Shown here: piece after piece, positions 9,070-64,000 of the stretch
Numbering within the stretch: the stretch's first letter is position 1
How the letters are laid out: each line of letters starts with the position of its first letter
NCBI RefSeq assembly: GCF_017813365.1
Contig: NZ_JAGIZA010000002.1
Location: forward strand, 1 to 64,000
Source: Roseomonas indoligenes
Lineage (GTDB): Bacteria; Pseudomonadota; Alphaproteobacteria; Acetobacterales; Acetobacteraceae
Reading direction: 5' to 3'
Length of the DNA stretch: 64,000 nucleotides
Position numbers and translations under genes: made by a program
The notes under the pieces: model-generated
What the model saw: the letters and a program-made list of their open reading frames with translations, nothing else
Databases searched by the model: none
What the model was told of the DNA's origin: nothing

Positions 9070-9084
9070 GAACAAAATAGGAAC
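9070..9084 (-). promoter_or_regulatory. LexA (SOS) box
   Basis: On the minus strand this reads GTTC-CTATTTT-GTTC, an exact match to the alphaproteobacterial LexA operator GTTC-N7-GTTC with the usual AT-rich spacer. It sits in a locally AT-rich patch 47 bases before the GTG of the 67-residue gene and 180 bases before the pirin gene. The leftward gene is the likelier target by distance and orientation. Confidence 0.7.
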
Positions 9085-9263
9085 AATTTGGTTCCCGGCG
9101 CTCTGCGGAGAACGTCGCTCGCGCCACGCGGTCCAGGCTACCCCCGACACGCCGCTGACCCTCTCACGGCCTGGCGCAGGAGGCTGGCACCGGCCGGGGC
9201 GGCCTGTGAGGTGACCGGGGGCCATGCGCCGTGCGAGAATATGGCCGACGACAGGGGGTGGCG

Positions 9264-10229
9264 ATGAGTGTGGACGGCGATCCGACCGGGCTGATGCCCG
9301 AATGCGGCGAGGGACCGGTGGGGCAGGTGATCCTGCCCCGTGTGCACGACATCGGCGGTTTCGAGGTTCGCCGCGCCCTGCCCGCGAAGCAGCGGCAGAT
9401 GGTCGGGCCCTTCATCTTCTTCGATCAGATGGGGCCGGGTGAGTTCCTGACCGGCCAGGGGCTGGACGTGCGGCCGCACCCGCATATCGGCCTCTCCACC
9501 GTCACCTACCTGTTCGAGGGCGAGATCCAGCACCGGGACACCCTGGGCTCCGATTTGGCGATCCGGCCGGGCGACGTGAACTGGATGACGGCCGGGCGCG
9601 GCATCGCCCATTCCGAGCGCACGGCGGAGGCGCGCCGCAGCCATCCCAACCCGCTCTACGGCATCCAGTCCTGGGTGGCGCTGCCGCGCGCGCAGGAGGA
9701 GGTGGCGCCGGGCTTCGCGCACCACCCCGCCGCCACCCTGCCGGTCATCAAGGACCGGGGCCTGCAGCTGCGGCTGGTCGCGGGCACGGGCTGGGGCGCG
9801 CGCTCCCCCGTGGTGACCTCATCCGAGCTGTTCTACGCGGATGCCGTGATGGCGCCCGGCGCGTCGCTGCCCCTTCCGGACCACGAGGAGCGCGGCGCCT
9901 ATGTGGTGGAGGGCGCCGTGGAGATCGCCGGCGACCGCTTCGAGGCCGGGCAGATGCTGGTGTTCCGCGCCGGCGATGGGTTGGCGATCACGGCGGGGCC
10001 GAAGGGCGCGCGGCTGCTCATGCTCGGCGGGGCCGCGATGGACGGGCCGCGCTTCCTGTTCTGGAACTTCGTCTCCTCCTCCCGCGAGCGGATCGAGCAG
10101 GCGAAGGACGACTGGCGCGAGGGGCGCTTCGGCACCGTGCCGGGGGACGACAAGGAGTTCATCCCGCTTCCGGTGGAGCGGGTGCGGGCTCAGGTGCAGG
10201 CGCCCTCCGGCGGGTCGCCGACGAGCTAA
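9264..10229 (+). CDS. Pirin family protein
   Basis: A 321-residue bicupin of the pirin family, iron-binding cytoplasmic proteins, some of which oxidise quercetin or act as redox-linked regulators. The metal ligands of the N-terminal cupin are all visible: His72 and His74 (RPHPHIG), His116 and Glu118 (GIAHSE). The C-terminal cupin (about 170-280) and the C-terminal segment PRFLFWNFVSSSRERI are typical. The open frame begins at 9231, but the ATG at 9264, after GGGGGTGG, fits the family start better. The gene stands alone and faces the mlaE-mlaF operon across a hairpin-rich gap. Confidence 0.93.
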   Translation: MSVDGDPTGLMPECGEGPVGQVILPRVHDIGGFEVRRALPAKQRQMVGPFIFFDQMGPGEFLTGQGLDVRPHPHIGLSTVTYLFEGEIQHRDTLGSDLAIRPGDVNWMTAGRGIAHSERTAEARRSHPNPLYGIQSWVALPRAQEEVAPGFAHHPAATLPVIKDRGLQLRLVAGTGWGARSPVVTSSELFYADAVMAPGASLPLPDHEERGAYVVEGAVEIAGDRFEAGQMLVFRAGDGLAITAGPKGARLLMLGGAAMDGPRFLFWNFVSSSRERIEQAKDDWREGRFGTVPGDDKEFIPLPVERVRAQVQAPSGGSPTS

Positions 10230-49121: not shown

Positions 49122-49142
49122 CCCATGCCAGTGTGGCATGGG
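49122..49142. promoter_or_regulatory. Operator-like palindrome between asd and lysS
   Basis: CCCATGCCA, spacer GTG, TGGCATGGG: 9 perfect base pairs with a three-base centre. CTTATAC, a good -10 box for rightward transcription, begins two bases further on. Protein-binding site or leader hairpin; the factor is unknown. Confidence 0.55.
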
Positions 49143-49279
49143 GCTTATACAGGCGGTGCTGGTTGATGCGAGGCGCTTGTTTCGGAGACCAGACCCGCCC
49201 TGCGGCGGAGGCGCCTTGTTTTGGGGCCGTGTGCCTCTCCGTTGACCCCGAGGGGGCGCGGGGGCATGTGGGCCGGGCT

Positions 49280-50911
49280 ATGCAACGTCCCCCCGCCGAC
49301 CCCTCCCTCCGCGACGTGCGCGCCTGGCCCTTCGAGGAGGCGGCGAAGGTGGCGGACCGCGCCGCGGTGAAAGCCAAGGGGGCGGCGCTGTTCGAGACGG
49401 GCTACGGGCCGTCCGGGCTGCCGCATATCGGGACCTTCGGGGAGGTGGCGCGCACGACCTGGGTGCGGCGGGCCTTCGAGCGGCTGACGGGGTTGCCGGG
49501 CCGGCTGCTCGCCTTCTCCGACGACATGGACGCGCTGCGGAAGGTGCCGGACAACATCCCGAATGCCGAGCTGCTGCGGGCGAACCTGGGCAAGCCGGTC
49601 TCCCGGATTCCGGACCCCTTCGGGACCCATGAGAGCTATGGGGCGCACAACAATGCCCGGCTCCGGGCCTTCCTGGAGGCTTTCGGCTTCGAGTTCGAGT
49701 TCGCCTCCTCCACCGACTACTACACCTCCGGCCGCTTCGATGAGGCGCTGCTGCGGATGCTGACGGTGCATGAGGAGGTGCGGCAGGTGATCCTGCCGAC
49801 GCTGGGGGCGGAGCGGCGGGCGACCTATTCTCCCTTCCTGCCGATTCATCCGAAGACCGGCCTGGTGATGCAGGTGCCGATGGAAGAGGTGCGGCCGGCG
49901 GCCGGGACGGTGGTGTGGCGGGACCCGGAAACGGGTGAGCGCTTCGAGACGCCGGTGACGGGCGGCCATGTGAAGGCGCAGTGGAAGGCGGACTGGGCCC
50001 TGCGCTGGTACGCGCTGGGCGTGGACTACGAGATGTCCGGCAAGGACCTGATCGACAGCGTGAAGCTCTCCTCCGGCATCTGCAAGGTGCTGGGCGGGGA
50101 GCCGCCGGTGGGCTTCACCTACGAGTTGTTCCTGGATGCCCAGGGGCAGAAGATCAGCAAGAGCAAGGGCAACGGGCTGACCATCGACGAGTGGCTGCGC
50201 TACGCGCCGCCCGAGAGCCTGTCCCAGTTCATGTACCAGCAACCCGGCCGGGCGAAGCGGCTGCACTTCGACGTCATCCCGCGGGCGACGGACGAGTACC
50301 TGGCGAATGTGGAGAAGCTTCGGGCCGCCAATGATCCGGCGAACCCGGCCTGGCACATCCATGGCGGGGCGCTGCCGAACGGGGCGGGGAGCCCGATCAC
50401 CTTCACCCTGCTGCTGAACCTGGCGCTGGCGGCGAATGCCGAGACGCCGGAGATGCTGTGGGGCTACCTGCGGCGGCACGCGCCGGAGGCGACGCCGGAG
50501 GCCTCGCCGATGCTGGCGACCCTGGTGGAGCGGGCCAGCGCCTATTACCGGGACGTGGTGAAGCCGACGAAGACCTTCCGGGCGGCCACCCCGCCGGAGC
50601 GGGAAGCGCTGCTGCATCTGGCGGAGCTGCTGCGGGAGAACCAGGGGCGGATCGAGGCGCTGCCGGCGGCAGAGCGCCCGGGGGCCATCCAGGATCTGGT
50701 CTATGACGCCGGGCGGCGGGAGCCCTTCCTGCAGCCGGGCAAGGATCCGTCCCGGCCGGGGGTTTCCAGGGCCTGGTTCGCGGCGATCTACCAGGTGCTG
50801 CTGGGGCAGGAGGAGGGGCCGCGCTTCGGCGGATTCGTCGCTCTCTACGGCATCCCGGAAACGGCGGCGCTGATCGAGGGGACGCTGGCGAAGGACGTGG
50901 CCGCCGCATGA
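49280..50911 (+). CDS. lysS: Lysyl-tRNA synthetase, class I
   Basis: 543 residues of the class I (archaeal-type) enzyme found in many alphaproteobacteria instead of the class II form. Signatures are GPSGLPHIG (43-51, HIGH-type) and KISKSKGN (291-298, KMSKS-type). The ATG at 49280 fits the family; the frame opens at 49133, but this part is unlike LysRS. No second lysS is in view. The stop overlaps the start of the MprF-like gene (ATGA), so the two proteins are made from one message. Confidence 0.94.
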
Positions 50912-52839
50912 GCTGGGCGCTGATCCGCAAGCACGGGCCGACGGTCTTCGGGCTGGTCCTGCTCGTGGGGGCGCTCTACGTCGTGCAGAAGGAGTTCCGC
51001 AACCTTTCGGTGGCGGATGTCGGGCGGGCGCTGGACGGGACGCAGCGGAGCACGCTGTGGATCGCGGGCGGGTGGACGCTGCTCGCCTACGCCGTGCTCA
51101 CCATCTACGACCGGCTGGGGTCGGTCTATGCGGGGAAGCCGATCTCCTACCTGCGGACGTCGCTGGCTTCCTTCTGCGCCTATACGCTGGCGCACAACAT
51201 CGGCTTCGCGGCGGTATCCGGCGCCGCGGTGCGGTACCGGTTCTACGCGGCCTGGGGGCTGACGCCGGTCGAGATCGCGAAGGTGATCGCCTTCACCTCC
51301 CTTACCTTCGGGCTGGGCGGCTTCGCGCTGGGCGGGCTGGTGCTGGTGCTGGAGCCCTCCGTGCTGCCCTGGGTGGGAGCGGGGGAGGCGGTGCCGGCCT
51401 GGGTGGCGCAGGCCGTCGGCGTGCTGATGTGGTGCATCGTGGCCGTCTATCTCGTGCTGTCCCGGGCGCTGCCGCATTTCACGATCTTCAAGCACCGGAT
51501 CGACCTGCCGGGGTTCCGGATGGCGCTGGCGCAGGTGGTGCTGGCGAGCGTGGACGTGGCGGTGACGGCGGCGATCTTCTACGCGCTGCTGCCGGAAGCG
51601 CCGGGGCTGACCTACTGGCGGTTCCTGGGCATCTACATCGCGGCCTATACCGCGGGGCTGGCGGCGAGCGTGCCCGGAGGCCTGGGCGTGTTCGACGGCT
51701 TCATCCTGCTGAGCCTCGAGCCCTATCTGCCCTCCGCCCAGGTGGTGGGGGCGGTGCTGCTGTTCCGGCTGTTCTACTACATCGTGCCGCTGTTCCTGGC
51801 GGGTGGGCTCTTCGCGGTCTTCGAACTGAACCAGAGGCGTCCCTCCGCGGGAAGGATGCAGACGGAAACCCGGGTGACGGGCGCTCTGGAGGTGCCCGTG
51901 CTGTCCGGGCTGACGGGGCTTGGGGGGGCGGTGCTGCTCTTCGTGGGCGCGCTGCCGGCGCGGGCGACGGATATCGCCCTGTGGGGCGGGGAATGGGCGG
52001 CGCTGGCGAGCCAATTCGCGGCCTCCATCGTCGGATCCCTGCTGCTGGTCGTCTCCTACGGGATGTTGCGGCGGCTTCGGATCGCCTGGTGGGCGGGGCT
52101 GTTCCTGCTGGCCAATGGCGTCTGGATCCTGCTGGTGCGGGGGGATCCCTGGTGGGTGGCGGTGGGCTATCTCGGCACCGGGCTGTTCCTCGCGGCGATG
52201 CGGCACGCCTTCTACAGGGACGCGCGACTGACGGGGGAGCCGCTGACGGGGTCCCGGGTCTTCTCGCTCGCGGCCGGGGTGATCTGCGGACTGACCCTGG
52301 CGACGGTGGCCTATCACGGGCGCTTCTCCTCCGCGGCCTGGTGGGAGGTGGTGGTGGAGGCCGGGACGCCGGCACCGCTGCGCTTCGCCGTGGTGGCGGC
52401 GGTGGCCCTGCTGCTCTTCGCCGCGTTCCGCCTGCTGCGCCCGGCGCGGATCCGCGCGGATGACTATGACGAGTCCGCCCAGGCGCGGCTGATGGGACTG
52501 GGGGCGGTTCTGCCCGCCCATGCCGACGGGGTGATCTTCGCCGATGGCGACCGGGCGGGCTTCCCGTTCCGCAAGCTGGATGGGATCTGGGTGGCGGAGG
52601 GCGATCCGGTCGGGACGCCGGAGGCGCGGGTCAATGCCATCTGGCGCTTCCGCGACCTGTGCGACACGGCCGGGGTGGCGCCCGCCTTCGCCGGCGTGGG
52701 GCAGGGTATGCTGCGCGCCTATGAGCAGGCCGGGATGGCGCCGGTGACGCTGCCGGACGGGCGGGTGATGGTGCTCTCCGGCGAGCAGGACCCGAAGAAG
52801 GTGCTGCGACTGCTGGCGGATGGCGCCGCCGGGGATTGA
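50908..52839 (+). CDS. MprF-like membrane protein with shortened synthase domain
   Basis: 643 residues. Residues 1-510 form about 13 membrane segments with the flippase signatures of the lysyl-phosphatidylglycerol synthase/UPF0104 family ([34 protein letters not shown]). From 515 on, the start of the DUF2156 (double-GNAT) synthase domain is recognisable ([40 protein letters not shown]), but the protein stops after about 130 residues, roughly half the usual domain. No continuation is found in other frames downstream. It is translationally coupled to class I lysS, whose product is the donor Lys-tRNA in true MprF reactions. It is either a flippase with a regulatory remnant or a decayed synthase. 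Confidence 0.88.
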
Positions 52840-52974: not shown

Positions 52975-53610
52975 TTACTGGCTGGCCCAGACGATGCGGT
53001 GCATCCAGGTCAGTTCCTCCAGCCCGAAGCTGTAGTTCGGATGGGCGGGGTTGAGGCTGGCGAGTTCCACGCGGCGGGCGGATTGGCGGAGGAGTTCCTT
53101 CGCCATCACCTCGCCGCCTTTGGTGCGGACCACGACACGGTCGCCGCGACGGACGGGGGCGGAAGGGGAGACGATGATGATGTCGCCGTCCCGGAAGACG
53201 GGCTCCATGGAGTCGCCGCTAATCTCCAGGGCATAGGCATTGGGGTCGCCGACCTCGGGCAGGCTGATCTCGTCCCAGCCACCGCCGACGGGGTAGCCGC
53301 CATCGTCGAAATACCCGGAGCTGCCGGCCTGGGCGAGGCCGATGAGGGGGATGCGGCGGCTCGGACGGGTGGCGGTGCGGAGGTTGCCGGTGATGAGGCT
53401 GGCGAACTCGTCCATGCCGGAGCCGGTGGCGGCGAGGACCTTCGCCACGCTCTCGGTGGAGGGCCAGCGGGCGCGACCGTCCGGGCCGATGCGCTTCGAG
53501 GGGTTGAAGGCGGTCGGGTCGAGTCCCGCCCTGCGGGCGAGGCCGGAGGCGGAGAGGCCGTTTTCCGCCGCCAGGGCATCGAGCGCGCGCCAGATGTCGC
53601 TGTGCTGCAT
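52975..53610 (-). CDS. Self-cleaving phage-type repressor (HTH + peptidase S24)
   Basis: 211 residues. The N terminus (5-65) is an HTH domain of the CI/XRE class (SASGLARRAGLDPTAFNPSKR). The C terminus is a peptidase S24 domain with Ser134 (SGDSMEPV) and Lys171 (VMAKEL). A likely cleavage bond Ala95-Gly96 lies in LAQAGSSGY. Such repressors cut themselves when activated RecA is present, lifting repression after DNA damage. It is divergent from the two small genes before the virion module and has a perfect palindrome three bases before its start codon, so it is probably autoregulated. It is not LexA itself. Confidence 0.92.
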   Translation of the reverse strand: MQHSDIWRALDALAAENGLSASGLARRAGLDPTAFNPSKRIGPDGRARWPSTESVAKVLAATGSGMDEFASLITGNLRTATRPSRRIPLIGLAQAGSSGYFDDGGYPVGGGWDEISLPEVGDPNAYALEISGDSMEPVFRDGDIIIVSPSAPVRRGDRVVVRTKGGEVMAKELLRQSARRVELASLNPAHPNYSFGLEELTWMHRIVWASQ

Positions 53611-53669: not shown

Positions 53670-53698
53670 TTGACGGTCACATCGACGTGGGTTGATGT
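53670..53698 (+). promoter_or_regulatory. Promoter facing the virion module
   Basis: TTGACG (53670-53675), 17-base spacer and TGATGT (53693-53698). The -35 box is strong and the -10 is weak. The LexA box begins inside the -10 element. Confidence 0.55.
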
Positions 53699-53711
53699 TC
53701 ACGTTGTGTTC
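53697..53711 (+). promoter_or_regulatory. LexA (SOS) box
   Basis: GTTC-ACGTTGT-GTTC, an exact GTTC-N7-GTTC operator overlapping the rightward -10 box and 25 bases before the start of the 144-residue gene. Together with the self-cleaving repressor, it points to DNA-damage control of this region. Confidence 0.7.
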
Positions 53712-53735: not shown

Positions 53736-54170
53736 ATGACCCGTCCTGTTTCCGGCGCCCTGCGCGCCCCTTCGCCCACCTTGTCGAGCATTGGTAAGGT
53801 CCAACCTTTCATCGATGCCGAGGAGGCCTGGTTCTGGACCATGGCCGCCCTGGTCGCCCGGCGCGACGGCGCGCGGATCGTTTCCGGCCGCGGGCTGGTG
53901 ACGCGGCCCTGCGAGCCGGATGACGTGGTGAAGTGCCTGGACCGGCTGTACCGGCAGCGCCGGATCGACCTGGCCCATGCGCGCATCATGCGAATCTGGG
54001 GAGAGCGCGGCGTGGCGCCCGACCCGAGGGCCCTGCGCGAGCGCGGCGACTATCGGCTGTGGCGCGAGGCGATGGAGCGGCTGGACTGGCCGCTGCGGAT
54101 GAAGGGGATCGTTGCCGGTCCCGCACCGGGCGGGGCCGAGGGCGACGTCGTCGCCTTCCCGAAGGCCTGA
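53736..54170 (+). CDS. Conserved hypothetical protein, first gene after the LexA box
   Basis: 144 residues from the ATG at 53736. The frame opens at 53670, before the LexA box, so the later start is required if the box is an operator. The central region (EAWFWTMAALVARRDGAR to RCLDRLYRQRRIDLAHARIMRIWGERG-like) is helical, with many Arg and Trp residues, and looks nucleic-acid binding. I have the impression of similar proteins in other Rhodospirillales, but cannot verify it. Function unknown. Confidence 0.75.
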   Translation: MTRPVSGALRAPSPTLSSIGKVQPFIDAEEAWFWTMAALVARRDGARIVSGRGLVTRPCEPDDVVKCLDRLYRQRRIDLAHARIMRIWGERGVAPDPRALRERGDYRLWREAMERLDWPLRMKGIVAGPAPGGAEGDVVAFPKA

Positions 54171-54177
54171 ATCGCTC

Positions 54178-54708
54178 ATGATTCACGTGCCGACCGTGCC
54201 GGCGCCCGACCTGATCGCCGCCACGGGAAACCGGGGCGGCGATCGTCGTTCGCGGGCCGGACCCGCCGGGGCGGGGCATCGCCGCGCGGCCGATTCGCGG
54301 CCGCAGGCTCTGTGGATCGCCTTCGGTGGCGGGGCGGACCAGGGCTGGGCACGGCTGCTTCGGCCGGGGTTCCGGCACTGCTTCGCGGGGCTGTGGGACG
54401 AGGCGGGATGGACCGTGCTGGACCCTCTCTCGGGCCGGCTGCTGGTGACGCGGCTGGCGGTCGATCCCGGGTTCGACCTGCCGGGGTTCTGGCGGCGGGC
54501 GGGGTGTCGGGTGCTCGGGCCTTTCGTGCCGGGTGCGCCGGCGCGGCGCCTGCCGGAGGTGGTTCCGCTCTCCTGCGTGTCGATGTGCCGGGCGGTGCTG
54601 GGGCCCCGCGCACCCTTCGCGCTGACGCCCTATGGGCTGTTTCAACGTCTGGATAAACTTTCCCAACAAAAGGAAAATGTTCTTGACGAAGGCGTCGTGG
54701 CCGGCTAG
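54178..54708 (+). CDS. Conserved hypothetical protein upstream of portal gene
   Basis: 176 residues from the ATG at 54178, seven bases after the previous stop. After a low-complexity first 45 residues, a compact domain begins at ALWIAFGGG, with WARLLRPGFRHCFAGLWDEAGWTVLDPLSGRLLV and a Cys pair near SCVSMCRAVLG. The Cys/His arrangement (RHCF...CVSMC) resembles papain-like or NlpC/P60-type folds, but this is not established. Ends in a Lys/Glu-rich tail. A terminator follows at 54773. Confidence 0.7.
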   Translation: MIHVPTVPAPDLIAATGNRGGDRRSRAGPAGAGHRRAADSRPQALWIAFGGGADQGWARLLRPGFRHCFAGLWDEAGWTVLDPLSGRLLVTRLAVDPGFDLPGFWRRAGCRVLGPFVPGAPARRLPEVVPLSCVSMCRAVLGPRAPFALTPYGLFQRLDKLSQQKENVLDEGVVAG

Positions 54709-54772
54709 ACCCCTCTTGTCAACGGGTGAGTTGCGCCCGGTGGCTTCCTCCCCCGATGCACCAAACCTTCGC

Positions 54773-54813
54773 AGGCCCGGCCCGGATCCTTCCGGCGCCG
54801 GGCCTGTTCGTTT
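54773..54813 (+). terminator. Intrinsic terminator before the portal gene
   Basis: AGGCCCGGC and GCCGGGCCT (9 base pairs) around a 15-base loop that can pair further, then GTTCGTTT. It separates the SOS-type small genes from the virion genes, so read-through or a second promoter is needed for the latter. Confidence 0.65.
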
Positions 54814-54901
54814 GCGGGCCGGGGGTTCCGAGCAGAGGAGCAGGCCGGCGCATGGGCGAGAGCATCCCTTTCCCGCCGCACCCCGAGGGGGAGATGGCGG
54901 C

Positions 54902-56320
54902 ATGACGCCCGACGAGATCATCCTGCGCGCCGAGCGCGCCCTGGAGCGCCGGCGGCCCTGGGAGGGTGTTTGGCGGGACTGCTACGACCACGTCCTGGCG
55001 GGCACGCCGGGCTCGGGCGGCCCCGCGCTGTATGACGGGACGGCGGCGGATGCGGCGGAGCATCTGGCGGCCTCCCTGCTGGCCGAGTTAACGCCGCCCT
55101 GGTCGCGCTGGTTCGGTCTCTCGCCCGTGGACGAGGGGATGGACCCGGAGGTTCTGGAGCGGGCGGCGGAGGTGCTGCAGGGGCATCTGGACCAGTCCAA
55201 CTTCGCGCTCGAGATGCACCAGGCCTTCCTGGACCTCGTGGTGGCCGGGACGGGCGTGGTGTTCGTGGAGGAGGCGGCGCCGGGCGAGCCCTCCGCCCTG
55301 CGCTTTACGGCGGTGCCGCTGCGAGAGGCGGTGCTGGAAGAGGGCGCGACCGGGCGGCTGGACACGGTGTTCCGTCTCGTGCGGATGACGGCGGACGCGA
55401 TGGCGGCGCGCTACCCGGAAGCGGTCCTGCCGGCCGGGATCTTCCAGTCCGGCGATGTCGAGGCGACGCACAAGGTGATCGAAGCGGTGTGGCCGGGGCG
55501 TTCCGGGCCGCGCTTCGCGGCGGTGCTGGAGTGGGACGGGCGCGGGACGCTGCTGGCGAGCGGGCGGTTCGAGGAGAGCCCCTTCCTCGCCTTCCGCTGG
55601 CTGAAGGCGCCGGGCGAGACCTATGGCCGCGGTCCCGTGATGAAGGCGCTGCCGGATATCCGCACGGCGAACAAGGTGGTGGAGTTGGTGCTGAAGAACG
55701 CCTCCATCGCCGCGACCGGGATCTGGCAGGCCGATGACGACGGGGTGCTGAACCCGGCGACGGTGCGGCTGGAGCCGGGAAGCATCATCCCGAAAGCGGT
55801 CGGCTCGGCGGGGCTAACGCCGCTGGCGGCGCCGGGGTCCTTCGACGTGTCGCAGCTGGTGCTGACGGACATGCGGGCGCGAATTCGCGCCGCGCTGCTG
55901 GCGGACCGGCTCTCCGTTCCGCAGCAGCCGGGGATGACCGCGACGGAGGTGCTGGAGCGGAGCGCGGAGACGGCGCGGCTGCTCGGCGCGACCTATGGCC
56001 GGCTGCAGGCGGAGCTGCTGACGCCGCTGGTGGCGCGCTGCCTGTCGATCCTGCGGCGGCGCGGGGAGGTGCCGCCGATCCTGCTGGACGGGGCGGAGGC
56101 GCGGATCGCCTACCAGTCGCCGCTGGCGCGGGTGCAGGGGCGGGCGGATGCCTCCAACACCCTGTTGTTCCTTCAGGCCGTGGCGGCGCTGGGGCCGGGG
56201 GCGGCGGGGGTCGTGGACCTGCCCGCGGCGGCCCGGCACCTGGCCCGCACCCTTGCCGCCCCGGCCGCCATCCTGGCGCCCGCGCCCAACCCGATGCCCG
56301 AACAGGAGCCCAGCGCATGA
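54902..56320 (+). CDS. Phage portal (head-tail connector) protein, podovirus type
   Basis: 472 residues of the T7-like portal family (Head-tail connector). The dodecameric ring sits at one vertex of the capsid and passes DNA. Features: DCYDHVLAG, LAASLLAELTPPWSRWFGL, the MHQAFLDLVVAGTGVVFVEE helix-strand, and TYGRGPVMKALPDIRTANKVVELVLKNA, typical of the family. RBS GAGGGGGAG before the ATG at 54902. Translationally coupled to the next gene (ATGA). Slightly shorter than T7 gp8 (536). Confidence 0.9.
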   Translation: MTPDEIILRAERALERRRPWEGVWRDCYDHVLAGTPGSGGPALYDGTAADAAEHLAASLLAELTPPWSRWFGLSPVDEGMDPEVLERAAEVLQGHLDQSNFALEMHQAFLDLVVAGTGVVFVEEAAPGEPSALRFTAVPLREAVLEEGATGRLDTVFRLVRMTADAMAARYPEAVLPAGIFQSGDVEATHKVIEAVWPGRSGPRFAAVLEWDGRGTLLASGRFEESPFLAFRWLKAPGETYGRGPVMKALPDIRTANKVVELVLKNASIAATGIWQADDDGVLNPATVRLEPGSIIPKAVGSAGLTPLAAPGSFDVSQLVLTDMRARIRAALLADRLSVPQQPGMTATEVLERSAETARLLGATYGRLQAELLTPLVARCLSILRRRGEVPPILLDGAEARIAYQSPLARVQGRADASNTLLFLQAVAALGPGAAGVVDLPAAARHLARTLAAPAAILAPAPNPMPEQEPSA

Positions 56321-57063
56321 GCGAGAACCTGCTGGAGATCGAGACCGATCCCGAGGAGGCGGAGGCAGTGCCCGAGCGTCTAGAGCGACCGGAGGAGGTG
56401 CCGGAGAAGTTCTGGGACGCTGAGCGCGGCGCGCTGCGGACGGAGGCGCTGCTGAAGTCCTACCGCGAGCTGGAGCGGAAGCTTTCCGCCCGCCTCGCGC
56501 CGCCGGGCGAGGACGCGCCGGAGGAGGAGCGCCAGCGCTTCCGCCGGGCCATCGGCGTGCCGGAGACGGCCGAGGAGTATGTGGTGGAGCAGCGCCACGA
56601 GCTGGTGGGTGCCGACCCCGAGGTGAACGCCATGTCGCATAAGGCGGGTTTCACCCCGGCGCAGGTGCAGGTGGTCTACGACCTGGCGGCGGATCGGCTG
56701 CTGCCGATCGTGGCCGAGGCGGCGGGGCAGTTCGAGGCGGAGCGCCAGCGGGACCGGCTGCGGGCCGAGTTCGGCGGGGAGGAGCGGTTTCGGCGCACGG
56801 CGAAGCAGATCGCCGCTTGGGGCCGCGCCAACCTGCCTGCCGAAGTGGTGGCCGCGCTTTCGACCACTGCGGACGGGGTGATCGCGCTGCACCGCATGAT
56901 GGAGAAAGGTGAGCCCGTCCTGGCGCGGCAGGGGGCGGCCCCGGAGCCAATGGACGAGGCGGGGCTGCGCAAAATGATGCGCGATCCCCGCTACTGGCGA
57001 AGCCGGGAGCCGGACTTCGTGAAGAAGGTGACTGAAGGCTTTCGGCGGCTCACGGGAGGGTGA
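56317..57063 (+). CDS. Phage scaffold-like protein
   Basis: 248 residues, acidic and largely helical: PEEVPEKFWDAERGALRTEALLKSYRELERKL is the motif seen in T7 gp9-like capsid assembly proteins. It would guide capsid assembly and leave before DNA packaging. The C-terminal part ends in a short helical hook (FVKKVTEGFRRLT). Its start overlaps the portal stop. Confidence 0.82.
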   Translation: MSENLLEIETDPEEAEAVPERLERPEEVPEKFWDAERGALRTEALLKSYRELERKLSARLAPPGEDAPEEERQRFRRAIGVPETAEEYVVEQRHELVGADPEVNAMSHKAGFTPAQVQVVYDLAADRLLPIVAEAAGQFEAERQRDRLRAEFGGEERFRRTAKQIAAWGRANLPAEVVAALSTTADGVIALHRMMEKGEPVLARQGAAPEPMDEAGLRKMMRDPRYWRSREPDFVKKVTEGFRRLTGG

Positions 57064-57482
57064 TGCAAGACTCTCAACCTGATCTTCAGGTTTTCTGGCT
57101 AAGCTACTGAAACCGGAATCGGGAAGCGGCGTTTTCCCGATACCTTCATGCGACGGGCAGTCACCGACTGCATCCCCCCAAGGGTGGCTCCCGTCCGCGC
57201 CGGTCCCGCATCCCCCCTCGTGCGGGCCGGCTGCGGGGGCGGGCGGCACCCTACTTCCCCCTGGTGCCGCCTGCCCCCGTCCTACTTCCCGAAAGGGCCC
57301 CCTCCGCATCGCGGGGCGGGGCCCTTCTTCGTTCTTATCCCCTTTCCGGCGCGACCAACCTGCCCGGCCCTATCGGGCCGCGGCGGGCGCGCGCCGTTCC
57401 GCGCGCCGCCCGGCCCCGGTTCGCCGTGCCAACCGGTCGGCCGCACGCCTGCGCCCCAGAACCCCATCCGAAGGAGGACCGC
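57064..57482 (+). other. Hairpin-rich gap between scaffold and capsid genes
   Basis: 419 bases without a credible gene. Four inverted repeats lie in a row: AACCTGA/TCAGGTT (57076-57092), ATCGGGAA/TTCCCGAT (57118-57141), GGCGGCACC/GGTGCCGCC (57242-57271) and a full terminator at 57293-57335. The rest is C-rich. AAGGAGG directly precedes the capsid start. Probably a terminator plus a promoter and leader for the capsid gene. Confidence 0.6.
57293..57335 (+). terminator. Intrinsic terminator upstream of capsid gene
   Basis: AAGGGCCCC and GGGGCCCTT (9 base pairs, 16-base loop), then CTTCGTTCTT. It separates portal-scaffold from capsid transcription. Confidence 0.7.
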
Positions 57483-58316
57483 GTGTCCGCCACGATCGAC
57501 CAGGCTTTCGTGAAGCAGTTCCAGGCCGAGGTGCACGAGGCCTATCAGCGCCAGGGCAGCAAGCTTCGCCCGACCGTGCGCTCCAAGACAGGCATCCACG
57601 GTGCCTCCACCGTCTTCCCGCGCGTCGGCAAGGGCACCGCGGCGGCGAAGGCGCGCAACGGCGTGGTGCCGGTGATGAACCTCGACTACTCCGCGGTGGA
57701 GTGCTTCCTGCAGGACTACTACGCCGGCGAGTGGGTGGATAAGCTCGACGACGTGAAGTCCAGCGTGGATGAGCGCGCGGTGGTGGCGAATGCCGGTGCC
57801 TATGCGCTGGGCCGCAAGACGGACGAGCTGATCATCGCCGCCCTCGACACCGCGACTCAGGAGGCGGTGGGCACCGCGGCCGGCACGACCGATACGGACG
57901 GGCTGACGAAGGCGAAGGTGCTGCTGGCCTTCGAGGCGCTGGGCGCCGCCGATGTGCCGGATGACGGCAACCGCTACGCCGTGGTGGGCTGGAAGCAGTG
58001 GAGCCAGCTGCTGCAGATCGAGGAGTTCGCCAATTCCGACTACGTCGGCGAGGCGGACCTGCCCTGGAAGGGCATGCAGGCCAAGCGCTGGCTCGGCGCG
58101 CTGTGGATGCCGCATTCCGGCCTGACGAAGAGCGGTAACCTGCGCTTCTGCTACTTCTACCACCGCACGGCGCTCGGCCATGCCGTGGCGCAGGACGTGA
58201 TGACCGACATCACCTGGCACGGCGACCGCGCCGCGCATTTCGTGAACAATATGATGAGCCAGGGCGCGGTGCTGATCGACGGCGTCGGCGTCGTGCGGAT
58301 GCGCGCGGCGGAGTGA
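57483..58316 (+). CDS. Phage major capsid protein, podovirus type
   Basis: 277 residues. Start: GTG at 57483, after AAGGAGGACC. The HK97-type fold is suggested by the N-arm (DQAFVKQFQAEVHEAYQRQGSKLRPTVR), an E-loop region (HGASTVFPRVGKG) and the C-terminal DITWHGDRAAHFVNNMMSQGAVLIDGVGVVRM. The sequence NLDYSAVECFLQDYYAGEWVDKLD is typical of capsids from alphaproteobacterial podoviruses. It is a single-gene unit between two terminators, as expected for a highly made protein. Confidence 0.88.
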   Translation: MSATIDQAFVKQFQAEVHEAYQRQGSKLRPTVRSKTGIHGASTVFPRVGKGTAAAKARNGVVPVMNLDYSAVECFLQDYYAGEWVDKLDDVKSSVDERAVVANAGAYALGRKTDELIIAALDTATQEAVGTAAGTTDTDGLTKAKVLLAFEALGAADVPDDGNRYAVVGWKQWSQLLQIEEFANSDYVGEADLPWKGMQAKRWLGALWMPHSGLTKSGNLRFCYFYHRTALGHAVAQDVMTDITWHGDRAAHFVNNMMSQGAVLIDGVGVVRMRAAE

Positions 58317-58338
58317 CCGGCCCGACGCCCTGACGAGG

Positions 58339-58366
58339 GGCCGCGCGGCGATGCCGCGCGGCCTTT
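58339..58366 (+). terminator. Intrinsic terminator after capsid gene
   Basis: GGCCGCGCGGC, loop GAT, GCCGCGCGGCC (11 base pairs), then TTTCCTCCCT, 22 bases after the capsid stop. Beyond it, 58367-58557 holds no further signal that I could support except the GGAGG before the next gene. Confidence 0.78.
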
Positions 58367-58557
58367 CCTCCCTCACGAGACAACGCGCGCGCTGCTGCCC
58401 CCCTTGCCTGCCGGGGAGCCGGTGCGCGCGGCGCGTGGGGCCGGTGCTTGCGGTGCACCGCCTGTTCCGCGCCCGCTCTGGCGCGACGTTCGCGGCCGCA
58501 CCGGCGCCGGCCCCCGCGCAATCCCTTCCTCATTCCTGAACTGGAGGCACCGAACCG

Positions 58558-59124
58558 ATGGCGCTGTCCGCCCTCGCCCTCTGCTCGCGCGCGCTGCTCA
58601 AGGTCGGCGCGCAGCCCATCGCCTCCCTCGAAGAAGGAACCGCCGAGGCGGAGGTCGCGGCCAACCTCTACCCGGGCACGCGGGACGCGCTGCTCTCCTG
58701 CCATCCCTGGTCCTTCGCGACGGGGCAGGCCGAGCTGAACCGGCTCGATGCGGTGCCGGTGGCCGATCTCTCCAACGCGTTCCAGCTGCCGGCGGGGCTG
58801 CTGCGCGTGATCTCCGCCGGCAGCGGGCGCGGGCGGGGGATCGTCTACCGGATCCAGGAGGGCCGGCTGCAAGCCGATCCCTATCAGGTGACCCTGACCT
58901 ACGTGGTCCGCCCGGCGGAGGCCGAGTTCCCGCCCTTCTTCGCGGCGGCCCTGGTCGCGCGGCTGGCGGCGGAGTTCTGCCTGCCGCTGACGGAGAGCAC
59001 CTCCCGCGCGGACATGCTGCACCGGATCGCGGAGACGGAGCTGCGCCAGGCTCGGCTGGCGGACAGCCAGCAGGCGACGCCGAAGGCCATCGACGGCTTC
59101 ACGCTGATCGGCGCGCGGGGCTGA
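58558..59124 (+). CDS. Tail tubular protein A-like (T7 gp11 type)
   Basis: 188 residues, the adaptor between portal and nozzle in short-tailed phages. Family features: ALCSRALLKVGAQPIASLEEGTAEAEVAANLYPGTRDALL at the start and HPWSFAT after it, with PPFFAAALVARLAAEFCLPLT in the helical C half. RBS GGAGG. Length close to T7 gp11 (196). Confidence 0.9.
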   Translation: MALSALALCSRALLKVGAQPIASLEEGTAEAEVAANLYPGTRDALLSCHPWSFATGQAELNRLDAVPVADLSNAFQLPAGLLRVISAGSGRGRGIVYRIQEGRLQADPYQVTLTYVVRPAEAEFPPFFAAALVARLAAEFCLPLTESTSRADMLHRIAETELRQARLADSQQATPKAIDGFTLIGARG

Positions 59125-59130
59125 TACGCC

Positions 59131-61011
59131 ATGCCCGTCATCAAGCGCGCCAAGACGGCCTTCACGGCCGGGGAGCTGGCACCGGAGCTGCTGGGGCGCG
59201 GCGACGTGCCGGCCTGGGGCAACGGCGCCGCCCGGCTCCGCAACATCTTCATCCAGCCCACGGGCGGCGTGCAGCGCCGGCCGGGGCTGCGCCACATCGC
59301 CACCCTGGCGGGACGCTCGCGCCTGGTGCCCTTCGAGGTGAGCACGGAGCAGACCTATCTGCTCGCGCTGCGTGAGGGCGCCTTGCGCGTGTTCCAGGGC
59401 GACACCCCGGTCGTCGAGCTGGGCGGCCCCTGGACGGCAGGCATGCTGTCGCAGATCGTATTCACGCAGAACGCGGAGATGCTGCTGCTGCTGCACCGGG
59501 AGATGCGGCCGCAGGTCGCCGCCCGCACGGCGTCCGGCGAGTGGTCCGTGCGGCCGGTGGAGTTCAGCGGAGAGCCATTCTACCGCTACGCGCCGGCCGG
59601 AGTGACGCTGACACCCAGCGCGACAACGGGGAGCGTGACGGTCACGGCTTCCGTAGCCGTGTTCGAGGCCGGGCATGTGGGGGCGCGACTGCGGCTGGAG
59701 GGGCGGCGCGTTCTCGTCACGGGGTATGCATCCCCGACCGTTGTCACCGCGACAGTGCAGGATGCGCTGTCCGGCACGGACGCGACCGCTTCGTGGGACG
59801 AGAGCGCCTTCGGGGCCGCGCGAGGCTGGCCCGCCAGCGCCTGCTTCCACCAGGGAAGGCTGGTGCTGGGCGGGGCGCGGAGCCTGCCGAACTGGCTGTG
59901 GTTCTCCCGCACCGCCGACCCGTTCAACTTCGACCTCGGCGAAGGGCTGGACGATCAGGCGATCGCCTTCAGCCTCGTCTCGGACCAGCTGAACGCGATC
60001 CGCGCCGTCTTCGCGGGGCGGCACCTGCAGGTCTTCACCTCTGGCGCGGAGTGGATGGTAACGGGCGATCCGCTCACCCCCGCTTCCATCCAGGTGACGC
60101 GGCAGACCCGCGTGGGATCGCTGGCGGACCGCAGCGTGCCGCCCCTCGACGTCGATGGGTCCACCGTCTTCGTCGGGCGCTCCGGGCGGGCGGTGCACGA
60201 ATTCTCCTACACCGACCTGCAGCAGGCCTATCAGGCGGACGACCTGGCGCTGGTGGCGCGGCACCTGATCGTCTCACCCGTGGCCATGGCCTACGACTCG
60301 CGCCGGCGGCTGCTGCACCTGGCGATGGCGGATGGCGGCCTGGCGACGCTGACGATCTACCGGGCCGAGGGCGTCACGGGCTGGACGCGGCAGGAGACGG
60401 ACGGGGCCTTTCGCTCGCTTGCCGAGATTGAGGGCGCTGTCTACGCCGTGGTGGAGCGCGCCGGCAGCTTCCGCCTGGAGCGCTTCGACGATGCGCTGAC
60501 GCTGGACGCCGCGGAGACCCCGACCGGCAGTGCCGCGGGCACCGTCTGGTCCGGGCTCGATCACCTGGAGGGACGGATCGTCGCCGTGGTGGCCGATGGC
60601 GCGCCGCGCGATGCCGCGACGGTGGTGGGCGGCGCGATCACGGTCGATCCCGCGGCGGGCGCCGTGCAGGCCGGGCTTCCCTTCACCCACGTGGTGGAGC
60701 CGATGCCGCCGGAGACGATCTCCGCCGCCGGCGCAAGGATGGGGCCGGTGCGGCTGGTCTCCATCACCTTCCGTCTGCTGGGGACGGGCACGCTGGCGGT
60801 GGATACCGGGCGCGGCGTGCGGCCCGTGCCCTTCCGCCGGCTGGACTCGCCGCTGCTGGACGCGGCGCCGGCGGCCTTCACGGGTGATGTGACGCTGCGG
60901 GCCTTCGGCTGGCGCCGGGATTCCGTCGCGCCGCTCTGGCGCATCGAGGATCCGGCGCCGCTGCCCTTTACCCTGCTTTCCGTGACCACCGAGACGAGGA
61001 CGACCGACTGA
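59131..61011 (+). CDS. Tail tubular protein B-like (nozzle, T7 gp12 type)
   Basis: 626 residues, the nozzle of a podoviral tail. N terminus KRAKTAFTAGELAPELLGRGDVPAWGNGAARLRNIFIQPTGG is characteristic, then HQGRLVLGGARSLPNWLWFSRTADPFNF and HEFSYTDLQQAYQADDLALVARHL of the propeller. Shorter than T7 gp12 (794). Six bases after the gp11-like gene and overlapping the next by one base. Confidence 0.92.
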   Translation: MPVIKRAKTAFTAGELAPELLGRGDVPAWGNGAARLRNIFIQPTGGVQRRPGLRHIATLAGRSRLVPFEVSTEQTYLLALREGALRVFQGDTPVVELGGPWTAGMLSQIVFTQNAEMLLLLHREMRPQVAARTASGEWSVRPVEFSGEPFYRYAPAGVTLTPSATTGSVTVTASVAVFEAGHVGARLRLEGRRVLVTGYASPTVVTATVQDALSGTDATASWDESAFGAARGWPASACFHQGRLVLGGARSLPNWLWFSRTADPFNFDLGEGLDDQAIAFSLVSDQLNAIRAVFAGRHLQVFTSGAEWMVTGDPLTPASIQVTRQTRVGSLADRSVPPLDVDGSTVFVGRSGRAVHEFSYTDLQQAYQADDLALVARHLIVSPVAMAYDSRRRLLHLAMADGGLATLTIYRAEGVTGWTRQETDGAFRSLAEIEGAVYAVVERAGSFRLERFDDALTLDAAETPTGSAAGTVWSGLDHLEGRIVAVVADGAPRDAATVVGGAITVDPAAGAVQAGLPFTHVVEPMPPETISAAGARMGPVRLVSITFRLLGTGTLAVDTGRGVRPVPFRRLDSPLLDAAPAAFTGDVTLRAFGWRRDSVAPLWRIEDPAPLPFTLLSVTTETRTTD

Positions 61012-61451
61012 TGGCACAGCTTGCCCCCGTCGTGACGCTCGCCGCCACCGGCGCCTCCATCTACTCGCAGATGGAGACGGCGAAGCGGCAGAAGAAGAAC
61101 GCGCAGGCCCAGCAACAGAACGCGCAGGTGCAGCAGGCGGCGCAGGAACAGGTCCTGGCCGCGCAGGCCGCGCAGGACACCGCCGAGCGGCAGCGCGCGC
61201 TGGACAGGACGATCGCCTCCTCCCGCGCGCGCCTGGCCGCGGGCGGCGTGAACCCGGACGAGGGATCCGGCGCCGCCATGGCGGCCGGGCTGCGCGGTGC
61301 CGCGGCGGCGGCGCAGGGCACCAACGACGCGGTCTATGCCGCGCGGCTCTCGGCTAACCGGAAGTCGCTGCTGGACGGGGACTCATCGCTCAACAACTGG
61401 GTACGCGCGGGGCAGGGCCTCGGCCGCGCCGTGAAGAGCCTGCTGGACTGA
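61011..61451 (+). CDS. Small internal virion-like protein (T7 gp14 type)
   Basis: 146 residues. One hydrophobic stretch (6-18) near the N terminus, then a long Gln/Ala-rich coiled coil (20-65), then AAGGVNPDEGSGAAMAAGLRG. The position after the nozzle and the layout resemble T7 gp14, an ejected core protein. The two large partners (gp15 and gp16) are missing: the tail-spike gene follows after only 37 bases. Confidence 0.7.
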   Translation: MAQLAPVVTLAATGASIYSQMETAKRQKKNAQAQQQNAQVQQAAQEQVLAAQAAQDTAERQRALDRTIASSRARLAAGGVNPDEGSGAAMAAGLRGAAAAAQGTNDAVYAARLSANRKSLLDGDSSLNNWVRAGQGLGRAVKSLLD

Positions 61452-61488
61452 CAACCTCACGCCCACGCGGCGGAACCGGAGAATCCTG

Positions 61489-63771
61489 ATGGCCGAGCAC
61501 ATCCGCATCGGCGACATCGCGCCGCGCGTGCAGTACGTGGCCGATGGCGCGCAGACCGCCTTCGTCTATCCTTTTCCCGTCTTCCAGGCCGACGACATCG
61601 CCGTGCATGTCGATGCGCTGCCCATGGCCGCCGGCTACGCCGTCTCCGGCGCCGGCAATTCGGAGGGCGGTCTCGTCACCTTCGCCCGGGCCCCGGCCGC
61701 CGGCGCCAGGGTGGTGCTGCGGCGCCACCTGGTGATGCAGCGGGTGACGGACTACCAGCCCAACGGCGTGCTGCGGGCCAACACGCTGAACGACGAGCTG
61801 GACCGCCAGATGGCCGCCCTTCAGGAGGTGAGGGAGGAGGCGACGGGAACCATCCGCCAGGGGCCGGGCGAGGCGGGCGGGCGGTTCGAGCTGCCGCAGC
61901 GCGCCGCCCGTGCCAACCGACTTCTGGGCTTCGACAGCCTTGGCGACATCGCCACCTTCTCCCGCGGGGAGGCGACGCTCTCCGCGCCCTTCCCCGGAGC
62001 GATCCCACGCACGGTGGAGGACAAGCTCTCCGAACGCCTCTCCGCCCGCGACTTCGGGGCGACCGGGAACGGCGTGGCCGATGACGGCCCGGCGCTGCAG
62101 GCGGCGATGAACGCGGCGGCCGCCTCGGGCAAGTTCCTGGACATCGGAGAGGGAACCTTTCGCACCACCATCCCGCTGACCCTTCCGGGTGCCGCCGCGG
62201 GCCTCTCCATGCGGGGTGCCATCCTCTATGCCGGCGCGGGCGGGGAGGCGGCGCTGACGCTCGGTGACGGCGGCAACGTGCGGAACCGCGCGAAGATCTA
62301 CCAGGGGCTGCGGGTGCTGCGCGCCGGTCTCTCCTCCTGGGAGGATGAGCGGGACGTCGGCATCCTCATCCGGAACCAGGACTCCGGCTTGATCGACATC
62401 CGCCAAGTGGAGATGTTCACCATCGGCGTGCAGACCCTGGGCGTGGAGCGCGGCTTCGAGGACAGCGTGCTCTATCTCGGCCGCATCGTGGACAACCGCT
62501 ACGGGCTTGATGTGCGGACGGCGAGCGCGGCGGCGTGGAACACCTCGGTGCGCTACTACGGCGGGCACTTCGCCATGTCGCTGGCGACCTATCCCGACAA
62601 GGACCGCTACGGCATCCGGCTCTCCGCCGCGCCCGGCGCTTATGTCGCGCACAACCGTCACGTCTTCGATGGGCCGGCCTTCGAGCTGCAGGCGCGGGAC
62701 CGGCCGATTGACGGGATCCCCTTCCTGATCGGGGTGAACTCGCGCGCGGTGGTGGCCCGCAACATCCGCATGGAGGGCTGCGACGCCTTCGTGGCCCGCC
62801 ACACCGCCGGCGCGCAGGATCACCTCTACGAGGTGGCCTGGGCCAGCCAGGCCTATGGCGTGGACATCGACTACACGGCCACGGCGACCCGCGTTGGCAG
62901 CGTGGTGCGCTGCTTGCACCAGGCGGCGGCGCACCGGGAATCAACCCGAACGCTGGCGGAGGTGCCGAATCTGCGCGCGGCCGCGATCCGGTGGAACGCG
63001 GCGGAGATCGGCTTCGAGAAGCTGGCCTGCCTCTCCACCAATGTCGGCAACGCGCCAACCCTGCTACCGCAATTCGCCTTCCAGGCGCTGGACAGCTATG
63101 TGCTGACGGATCGCGGCGTGATCCTGCCGGGTGGGCGTGGCCTCGGCTTCGTGGTGGATGCGCGGAAGTGCAAGGAGTTCGCACTGGCCGTCGATGCCGA
63201 CGACCCCCGCATGATCATCCAGTGCTTCGGCGCGGGGAACGCGCTGCTGACGGCGGCAGACGGGGTGATGGTCCGGGCCTCCGGCATGTCGCTGACCTAT
63301 GTGGACGGGCCGCGATGGTGGCAGGGCAATGCGGACAGCAACGACGCCGGGCTGACGCGGCTGCAGGTGGTGCGGCTGGCGCCGCAGGTGCAGACCGCGA
63401 TCATCGGCGTGGCGCGCGTGGGCACGGATTACGAGGTGCGGAGCATGCGCTTGGCCTGCGACCCCTCACAGAGCCCGGCGGTGCTCTACGGCACGCCGGA
63501 GCTGCCGCACGGCGCGCGGGAACTGAAGGCTGAGATGGCCTGGGACCCGCCCTCCATCGCGGCGGGCGGCTCGGCCTCGCTCAATGTGCCCTGCACGGGG
63601 GTGCGGCCCGGCGACTTCGTGCAGGCGGCCTTCAGCCTTTCCTCGTCGGGCGTGATGTTCCTCGCGCAGGTCGGCGCGCAGGACGTGATCACCGTCACGG
63701 CCTGGAACCGCAGCGCGGCGGCGATCGACCTGAACGCGGGCACGGTGCGCGTGCGGGCGGTGAAGTCTTGA
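61489..63771 (+). CDS. Phage tail spike/fibre with beta-helix domain
   Basis: 760 residues. The first ~150 match the T7 gp17-type attachment domain (YVADGAQTAFVYPFPVF, LRRHLVMQRVTDYQPNG). A short linker leads to ARDFGATGNGVADDGPALQAAMNAAA, the start of a pectate-lyase-like right-handed beta-helix, as in spikes that cut surface polysaccharide. No catalytic residues can be assigned. It would set host range. The next gene begins in the stop codon overlap. Confidence 0.9.
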   Translation: MAEHIRIGDIAPRVQYVADGAQTAFVYPFPVFQADDIAVHVDALPMAAGYAVSGAGNSEGGLVTFARAPAAGARVVLRRHLVMQRVTDYQPNGVLRANTLNDELDRQMAALQEVREEATGTIRQGPGEAGGRFELPQRAARANRLLGFDSLGDIATFSRGEATLSAPFPGAIPRTVEDKLSERLSARDFGATGNGVADDGPALQAAMNAAAASGKFLDIGEGTFRTTIPLTLPGAAAGLSMRGAILYAGAGGEAALTLGDGGNVRNRAKIYQGLRVLRAGLSSWEDERDVGILIRNQDSGLIDIRQVEMFTIGVQTLGVERGFEDSVLYLGRIVDNRYGLDVRTASAAAWNTSVRYYGGHFAMSLATYPDKDRYGIRLSAAPGAYVAHNRHVFDGPAFELQARDRPIDGIPFLIGVNSRAVVARNIRMEGCDAFVARHTAGAQDHLYEVAWASQAYGVDIDYTATATRVGSVVRCLHQAAAHRESTRTLAEVPNLRAAAIRWNAAEIGFEKLACLSTNVGNAPTLLPQFAFQALDSYVLTDRGVILPGGRGLGFVVDARKCKEFALAVDADDPRMIIQCFGAGNALLTAADGVMVRASGMSLTYVDGPRWWQGNADSNDAGLTRLQVVRLAPQVQTAIIGVARVGTDYEVRSMRLACDPSQSPAVLYGTPELPHGARELKAEMAWDPPSIAAGGSASLNVPCTGVRPGDFVQAAFSLSSSGVMFLAQVGAQDVITVTAWNRSAAAIDLNAGTVRVRAVKS

Positions 63772-64000
63772 ACCCGCTGACGCCGGAGGAACTGCACCGC
63801 GCCATCCGCAAGGTGGTGGCGGATTACGAGGCCTTCGTCGCGCGCGGGCCGGCCCCCGGCACGCACGAGGACCCGAAAGCCTTCACCGCCCATCACGCGG
63901 CGGCGCGCTCCGCGCTCGCGCATCTCGAGCACCTGATGAAGCTCGACAAGGGGCAGGTGGAGCCGGACGCGGTGGCGGAAACGGGCGCGCTGATCGCGGA
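63768..64000 (+). CDS. Partial hypothetical phage protein (runs off the window)
   Basis: At least 77 residues, starting with TTG at 63768, which overlaps the spike stop codon (TTGA). Begins NPLTPEELHRAIRKVVADYEAFVARG and continues as a helical protein with a His-rich middle (FTAHHAAARSALAHLEHL). No family is recognised. The frame is open to the right edge. Coupling to the spike suggests a spike chaperone or an associated virion protein, by position only. Confidence 0.6.
   Translation, partial: MNPLTPEELHRAIRKVVADYEAFVARGPAPGTHEDPKAFTAHHAAARSALAHLEHLMKLDKGQVEPDAVAETGALIA

Follow-up and report, generated by a model that had tools for sequence, protein, structure and literature searches.

A conserved podovirus-type gene cluster, probably a domesticated particle akin to gene transfer agents, in Acetobacteraceae and other Alphaproteobacteria

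The window analysed here, bases 1-64000 of contig NZ_JAGIZA010000002.1 (C12; 492,745 bases) in the 5.8 Mb genome of Roseomonas indoligenes, runs at its right end into a module of phage genes of ~13.4 kb that extends over ~53.7-67.1 kb of the contig. We propose that this cluster probably specifies a domesticated, vertically inherited particle of the podovirus type, similar to a gene transfer agent (GTA) and mostly fixed in the chromosome. An earlier note on the same DNA had raised this possibility in place of an ordinary prophage, and it is supported by the conservation of gene order and place, by purifying selection and by gene trees that resemble those of the host. From the genes and their trees, the cluster is not a recent prophage; particle production, SOS induction, packaging of host DNA and gene transfer are what we infer from sequence.

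Gene order, place and spread of the cluster

On the plus strand the module reads g1, g2, portal, scaffold, capsid, gp11-type, gp12-type, gp14-like, spike, a gene in the position of the small terminase (terS), large terminase (TerL), holin-like, endolysin-like and DUF952 (Table 1), beyond which lie an EamA transporter gene and then pyrD. The order of phage T7, which serves here for comparison, had been recognised in the earlier note from portal to spike, and Pfam and PHROG matches bear it out, that of gp14 being weak. Terminase and lysis genes had been expected to the right of the window, and a T7-type TerL is found there whose ATPase and nuclease catalytic acids are near-invariant (106-109 sequences). 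The names gp14, small terminase, holin and endolysin are weak or positional: terS and holin follow from position and the endolysin from a weak match. Like a T7-type phage, the cluster has a portal, scaffold and terminase of the T7 type and a gp12-type tail, and the G+C content of the module is similar to that of the remaining window (0.72 and 0.70).

The large internal core proteins of such phages (gp15/gp16 type) are absent from the cluster. The gap of 37 bases between the gp14-like gene and the spike is exact here, as had been noted, and the corresponding gap between open reading frames (ORFs) is short across the family too: at most 258 bases in 69/69 Acetobacteraceae loci that have both genes on one strand, and at most 83 bases in 25/27 loci from elsewhere in the class, the others being L283 (1139 bases) and L284 (463). 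The gp14-like gene itself is present in 71/75 family loci. As controls, three podo-prophages of the family (L083, L084 and L305) have homologous portal and capsid genes and two large ORFs behind gp12, of 1022 and >1514, 1019 and >546, and 864 and 793 amino acids (aa). Five of these large ORFs were scanned. Both ORFs of L083 and the first of L084 match, among other lytic families, phrog_342, an internal virion protein with an endolysin domain; the first of L305, which has a gp14-type protein ahead of its large ORFs, matches endolysin and head-protein families, and its second matches uncharacterised families alone. Because these prophages carry large internal proteins, the absent core is a real difference and not an annotation gap. 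Primase or primase/helicase genes are found in L084 and L305. Two genomes with the main cluster have an additional podo-element of more distant kinship (L081 and L305; capsid 55-61%), L305 with its primase/helicase.

A structural cluster derived from phage and lacking replication and integration genes is what a GTA locus would contain, and the search on both sides of the cluster turned up neither an integrase nor a replication gene; attachment sites were not searched for. Nor was there an RNA polymerase gene among the genes scanned at 53.7-67.1 kb, the genome not having been searched for that family. The left flank is of housekeeping type, as the earlier note described it, with lysS and an mprF-like gene, to which an S24 repressor gene is added. 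The outcome that had been named as fatal to the proposal, a replication module and integrase to the right together with absence from relatives, was looked for and is not what we see. None of the 12 integrase matches in the genome adjoins the cluster, as one would for an ordinary prophage; the sole match on contig C12 (1153-1557) lies ~51 kb to its left. That match belongs to a tyrosine integrase with an arm-binding domain (window 1045-2346, minus strand) near the left end of the contig, probably part of a separate island. The cluster has no plasmid match, and its best phage match (57%) is to a 5 kb contig.

Synteny across Acetobacteraceae shows the order to be conserved, and the place largely so, across part of the family. 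A capsid search matched 78/299 family genomes in 24/102 genera, with one main-type locus per genome among the matches listed. G177 and G297 gave distant matches only and G289 a fragment only; 74 main-type loci were fetched, which with the window makes 75. The named carriers are Roseomonas and kin within Acetobacteraceae, the closest capsid being that of R. populi (97%). The genes found are collinear in 73/75 loci, and the other two differ just in overlapping holin and endolysin calls. All nine marker genes occur in 62/75, and portal, capsid, gp11, gp12 and TerL stand within one stretch in 64/75; in many of those that fall short, the end of a contig truncates the locus. On the left, lysS or mprF is found in 39/65 loci with that side covered, and on the right pyrD, DUF952 or the transporter in 48/62. 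Among the 57 loci covered on both sides, both flanks are kept in 29, one or more in 51 and none in 6; in one of these six (L057) an internal deletion brings the right flank close in.

The Acetobacteraceae setting given in the earlier note stands, and confinement to that family does not, since the cluster also occurs in other families of the class. A capsid match was obtained in 90/385 class genomes. Besides the window's own genome, 58 match at E <1e-40 with 53-72% identity; the 31 of the 90 with distant matches (E >1e-40) were not counted, which gives 59 cluster-positive genomes. Families with several such genomes are f51 and f90 (four each) and f68, f82, f105, f131 and f136 (three each). The 57 class loci examined span 34 further families; 31 of these loci, from 19 families, have the five core genes in one place, and 13, from 8 families, have nine markers. 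In other class families the part from capsid to lysis genes stands separate from the portal part. A portal gene was present in 19/19 class genomes tested, at >=52% identity in 13, and lay in the same cluster in two of them (G758 and G519); it stood beside the scaffold and g1 or g2 in 12/21 portal loci. The portals of f82, f62 and f17 have diverged (34-43%), so that the link of these families to the cluster is weaker. As for place, eight class families have pyrD or DUF952 behind the capsid module, two more have only a transporter match there, and lysS precedes the cluster in four.

PF13547, the GTA TIM-barrel protein, which we take as the marker of RcGTA, is present in 36/385 class genomes and in 0/59 of the cluster-positive ones (Fisher p 0.003). 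This p value ignores descent and therefore largely restates that different lineages carry the cluster and PF13547. No PF13547 match was found in G000 or in any of the 31 class genomes with distant capsid matches. Family f93 holds two cluster genomes together with one that has a weak PF13547 match.

Selection, descent and putative SOS-type control

The ratio of nonsynonymous to synonymous substitution rates (dN/dS), proposed in the earlier note as a check, indicates purifying selection on the cluster genes. It was computed on subsets of loci from the window's own genus g1 (5/8), from genera g102 (5/6), g16 (7/7) and g36 (5/7), and from family f90 (4/4), where dS is near saturation. In the four genera the medians were 0.07-0.16 for the capsid gene (mcp), 0.13-0.21 for portal and 0.15-0.19 for terL, next to 0.10-0.19 for lysS and 0.13-0.32 for mprF in the three genera with host flanks in reach. 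Every cluster gene had a median well below 1, the highest being terS (0.65). Judged from these alignments, the structural genes are under the purifying selection expected of a GTA.

Gene trees, from which L081-L084 and L304-L306 were left out, recover most GTDB groups with at least two members as monophyletic: portal 20/21, mcp 26/29, terL 22/24, gp12 24/26, gp11 24/27, gene g1 14/17 and S24 17/17. Cluster genes do so about as often as host genes (pyrD 8/9, lysS 8/10). Branch distances of capsid, portal and TerL correlate with those of lysS or pyrD at 0.70-0.91 (25-39 taxa), and those of lysS and pyrD with each other at 0.83. The trees show mostly vertical inheritance with the host, as in GTAs, with exceptions in the window's genus (portal, mcp, gp12 and gene g1).

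Between the divergent S24 gene and g1 lies an exact GTTC-N7-GTTC, which we take to be the alphaproteobacterial LexA motif. The earlier note had placed the two small leading genes under SOS control, and the box is indeed ahead of them and conserved: it is present in exact form in 51/65 family S24-g1 gaps and in 58/92 family and class regions, against a background of 0.044 per kb overall. Since the window has three occurrences of the motif where 0.77 are expected, the claim is carried by this conservation and not by a single match. A further exact box (GTTCCTATTTTGTTC) lies at window 9070-9084 (minus strand), between ORFs 7760-8803 and 9231-10229. The sequence ATCCTAGG also occurs in 51/65 of the same S24-g1 gaps and is possibly the operator of the S24 repressor.

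That the S24 repressor is LexA itself was considered and rejected (27.8 bits vs 110.95); the LexA DNA-binding family has a single match in the genome. The repressor keeps Ser, Lys, Ala and Gly positions in 83-84 of 88 sequences, which we take, matching by eye to LexA, to be those of self-cleaving repressors. Its gene was found in 31/48 of the capsid-negative genomes chosen (51 genomes chosen in all), in 26 at E <1e-40, and is thus independent of the cluster. In G417, where the RcGTA marker is present, lysS, S24, DUF952 and pyrD lie within 3.6 kb without the cluster. S24, g1 and pyrD are close together in 4/10 capsid-negative family loci seen; by their gene content, such loci look like cases of cluster loss in which g1 was left behind. 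In G124 a single ORF, the product of an internal deletion, matches both the g1 and TerL models.

Proposed function and its rivals

If the cluster is a GTA-like particle, DNA damage would cause LexA, and probably the S24 repressor too, to release the promoter ahead of g1. Particles would then assemble from portal, scaffold, capsid, tail and spike, and the T7-type terminase would fill the heads with DNA. The cargo is probably host chromosome, because the cluster carries no genes for its own replication and the locus is too short for a normal T7-type genome; self-packaging is unlikely given this lack and the splitting of the genes in several families. Lysis genes would open the cell and the spike would bind kin. 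To judge from the absent ejection core, passage of the DNA through the inner membrane may be a simpler process than usual or may depend on the recipient. A fuller account, on which we are nearly undecided and lean slightly against, is that many alphaproteobacterial families have inherited a second, podovirus-type GTA at an old lysS-S24-pyrD locus, controlled by LexA and S24 and held in place of RcGTA (one or the other per lineage), whose core was dropped as recipients finish DNA uptake. Competence does not serve as a discriminator here: ComEC (PF03772) was found in 48/49 cluster-positive genomes (49 of the 59 were scanned) and 29/30 capsid-negative ones.

Several observations weigh against a domesticated particle inherited with its host. 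The capsid match is missing from 221/299 family genomes, so that the cluster has long been dispensable or was never there in them. One or both of the named flanks are missing from 28/57 covered family loci, the genes found are collinear in just 44/57 class loci, and 16/26 class regions have no exact LexA-type box (10/26 have it). Damage to individual loci also occurs: G248 is without gp12, gp14 and spike, G204 without g1 through scaffold and the start of the capsid, and the capsid has stops in G072 and two class genomes. Evolution is faster in gp14, terS and the lysis gene lys (dN/dS up to 0.39, 0.65 and 0.36), and for many cluster genes the median dS somewhat exceeds that of lysS and mprF, with overlapping ranges. 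Finally, the window's genus, monophyletic in the lysS, S24 and terL trees, is only partly matched by the cluster: in the portal, mcp and gp12 trees it separates cleanly into two groups, and it is not monophyletic in the tree of gene g1, for which exchange across genera or tree error are possible causes.

Among the alternatives, an unlikely one is that the domesticated particle serves to kill or lyse competitors, capsid and terminase being kept for assembly. Domestication of phages can end in such devices, as tailocins show, and the cluster retains its spike and lysis-type genes, as this reading would expect. A killer free of DNA would nevertheless have no need of near-invariant terminase acids or of low dN/dS in terL and capsid, and in f90, where no spike was found, terminase and endolysin-like genes are retained. 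We consider it very improbable that the cluster is an ancient anchored phage whose heads still take up chiefly the 13 kb of the cluster itself, for instance as concatemers made by host-driven replication. Head, tail, packaging and lysis-type genes do stand together, and in IMG/VR the region is filed among viral contigs, many of them 12-14 kb long; yet none exceeds 16.2 kb among 80 of 465 loci kept, no integrase or replication genes were found, the place is largely the same across genera, and the splitting of modules in several families would hardly be tolerable for a genome that packages itself.

A prophage remnant decaying without function would fit the losses and partial deletions described above, but it can scarcely be reconciled with median dN/dS well below 1 for all cluster genes (0.65 at most, in terS) and an internal capsid stop in only 1 of 75 family loci. 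Similarly remote is a structural kit kept by the host for a satellite element, which the lack of replication and mobility genes, as in the late operon of a helper, would suit; the conserved LexA-type box and the lysis-type genes suggest autonomous use instead. We therefore retain the domesticated GTA-like particle as the probable explanation. If it is correct, many alphaproteobacteria without RcGTA own a GTA from a different virus lineage that is tied to DNA damage. This would be an independent phage domestication of class-wide reach, against which ideas on why bacteria keep such particles can be tested, and the absent ejection core would show what a short-tailed particle can omit in delivering DNA to kin.

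Relation to known systems and further features

RcGTA is of the siphovirus HK97 type, whereas the cluster has portal, capsid, tail and terminase of the podovirus/T7 type together with a LexA-type box, and its carriers lack the PF13547 marker. T7-type podoviruses and prophages, namely Pelagibacter phage Hodr (capsid 44%) and L083, L084 and L305, share homology with the cluster from portal and scaffold through capsid, gp11 and gp12, and the three prophages differ from it in the two large proteins behind gp12 and, in two of them, the primase or helicase. The GTA families classified so far are those typified by Rhodobacter, Bartonella and Brachyspira (PMC9662315). RcGTA (Rhodogtaviriformidae) is described there, in terms that would also suit the cluster, as domesticated phage genes that co-evolved with alphaproteobacterial hosts (PMC9662315). 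The GTA of Faecalibacterium prausnitzii (FpGTA) resembles the cluster in being GTA-like and called most likely podovirus-like, and lies in two operons (PMC12946183). It differs in its Gram-positive host and in that host DNA in its capsids was measured (PMC12946183), whereas the cluster is known from its genes alone; we liken the two by description. Within the literature examined, FpGTA alone among GTAs is labelled podovirus-like. No account of the cluster was found in open-access literature by title and start of abstract, which does not prove that it is unpublished.

The S24 repressor recalls RogA of Caulobacter, a LexA-like HTH-S24 protein of 213 aa that represses GTA activators, acting through gafYZ, and is widespread in Alphaproteobacteria (PMC9632790). 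The likeness is by description, the protein here having 211 aa and occurring also in the capsid-negative genomes mentioned above. RogA is reported to be without catalytic residues (PMC9632790), whereas the S24 protein keeps the four positions.

Table 1. Features of the cluster and its flanks (coordinates on contig C12; those up to 64000 are also window coordinates)
Feature	Position	Strand	Basis or remark
lysS	49133-50911	+	NF001968, 776 bits
mprF-like gene	50908-52839	+	MprF-like matches below equivalog cut-off
S24/LexA-CI-type repressor	52975-53610	-	211 aa; PF00717, 3.7e-23; divergent from g1
LexA-type box GTTCACGTTGTGTTC	53697-53711	+	GTTC-N7-GTTC, between S24 gene and g1
g1	53736-54170	+	144 aa; conserved leading gene, predicted ORF without assigned function
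g2	54178-54708	+	176 aa; candidate circularly permuted papain/NlpC-P60-like protein
Portal	54902-56320	+	PF12236, 6.4e-126; solved relatives 9efk, 8ck0
Scaffold, T7-type	56317-57063	+	PF05396, 7e-14
Scaffold-capsid gap	57064-57482		strong predicted hairpins, one terminator-like
Major capsid protein (mcp)	57483-58316	+	277 aa; PF19821, 2e-78; structure 9eg4
gp11-type tail protein	58558-59124	+	phrog_394, 2e-42
gp12-type tail protein	59131-61011	+	phrog_376, 1e-132
gp14-like small internal protein	61011-61451	+	phrog_418, E 0.0012, weak
Tail spike	61489-63771	+	phrog_1640, 9e-25; PF03906 and PF12708 below cut-off
Putative small terminase (terS)	63768-64000, to 64073 on contig	+	matches phrog_31793, uncharacterised; named by position
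T7-type large terminase (TerL)	64057-65502		NCBIfam termin_lrg_T7 NF033889, 407 bits vs cut-off 150
Holin-like	65831-66211		by position; matches phrog_29007, uncharacterised
Endolysin-like	66216-66722		PF07486, E 0.015; phrog_938, E 0.025
DUF952, right border	66797-67129		PF06108, 6.7e-25

The leading gene g1 is 63-87% identical to its counterparts in 30 relatives. It has no Pfam or NCBIfam match and a single weak PHROG match (E 0.015), and its AlphaFold2 (AF2) model is weak (pLDDT 68.7), with no fold match by Foldseek in the PDB at E <0.001. The g2 alignment has invariant His67, Cys68, Cys133 and Cys137. Its AF2 model aligns by VIA-align with TseH (Z 7.2) and YiiX (Z 5.5) and resembles phage proteins in BFVD (E 1.3e-5), whereas Foldseek against the PDB gave nothing at E <0.001. 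From the conserved His and Cys and these model scores (Z <8), g2 is tentatively a circularly permuted papain/NlpC-P60-like protein. The spike starts with an N-terminus like that of the T7 tail fibre (the PF03906 match), followed by a pectate-lyase-like start.

The gap between scaffold and capsid is long and rich in hairpins, a possible attenuation point, and clusters of other families split nearby. It has one terminator-like site where 0.3 are expected; no second LexA-type box ahead of the capsid was found (0/70 such gaps), and no Rfam family reaches its gathering score in locus L005. Inside the clusters of 16 family and class loci there are 36 ORFs of at least 250 aa without an assigned gene, several of which look antisense or of low complexity and others like inserted genes. 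In f90, whose genomes are of 1.1-1.5 Mb (L297, L298, L299 and L303), a LexA-type box is present along with the terminase and the endolysin-like gene. In f68 and f157, with genomes of 0.9 Mb (L285, L286, L288 and L289), related genes are rearranged and the portal lies downstream of the capsid; an ORF near L289 looks, by eye, like DnaB.

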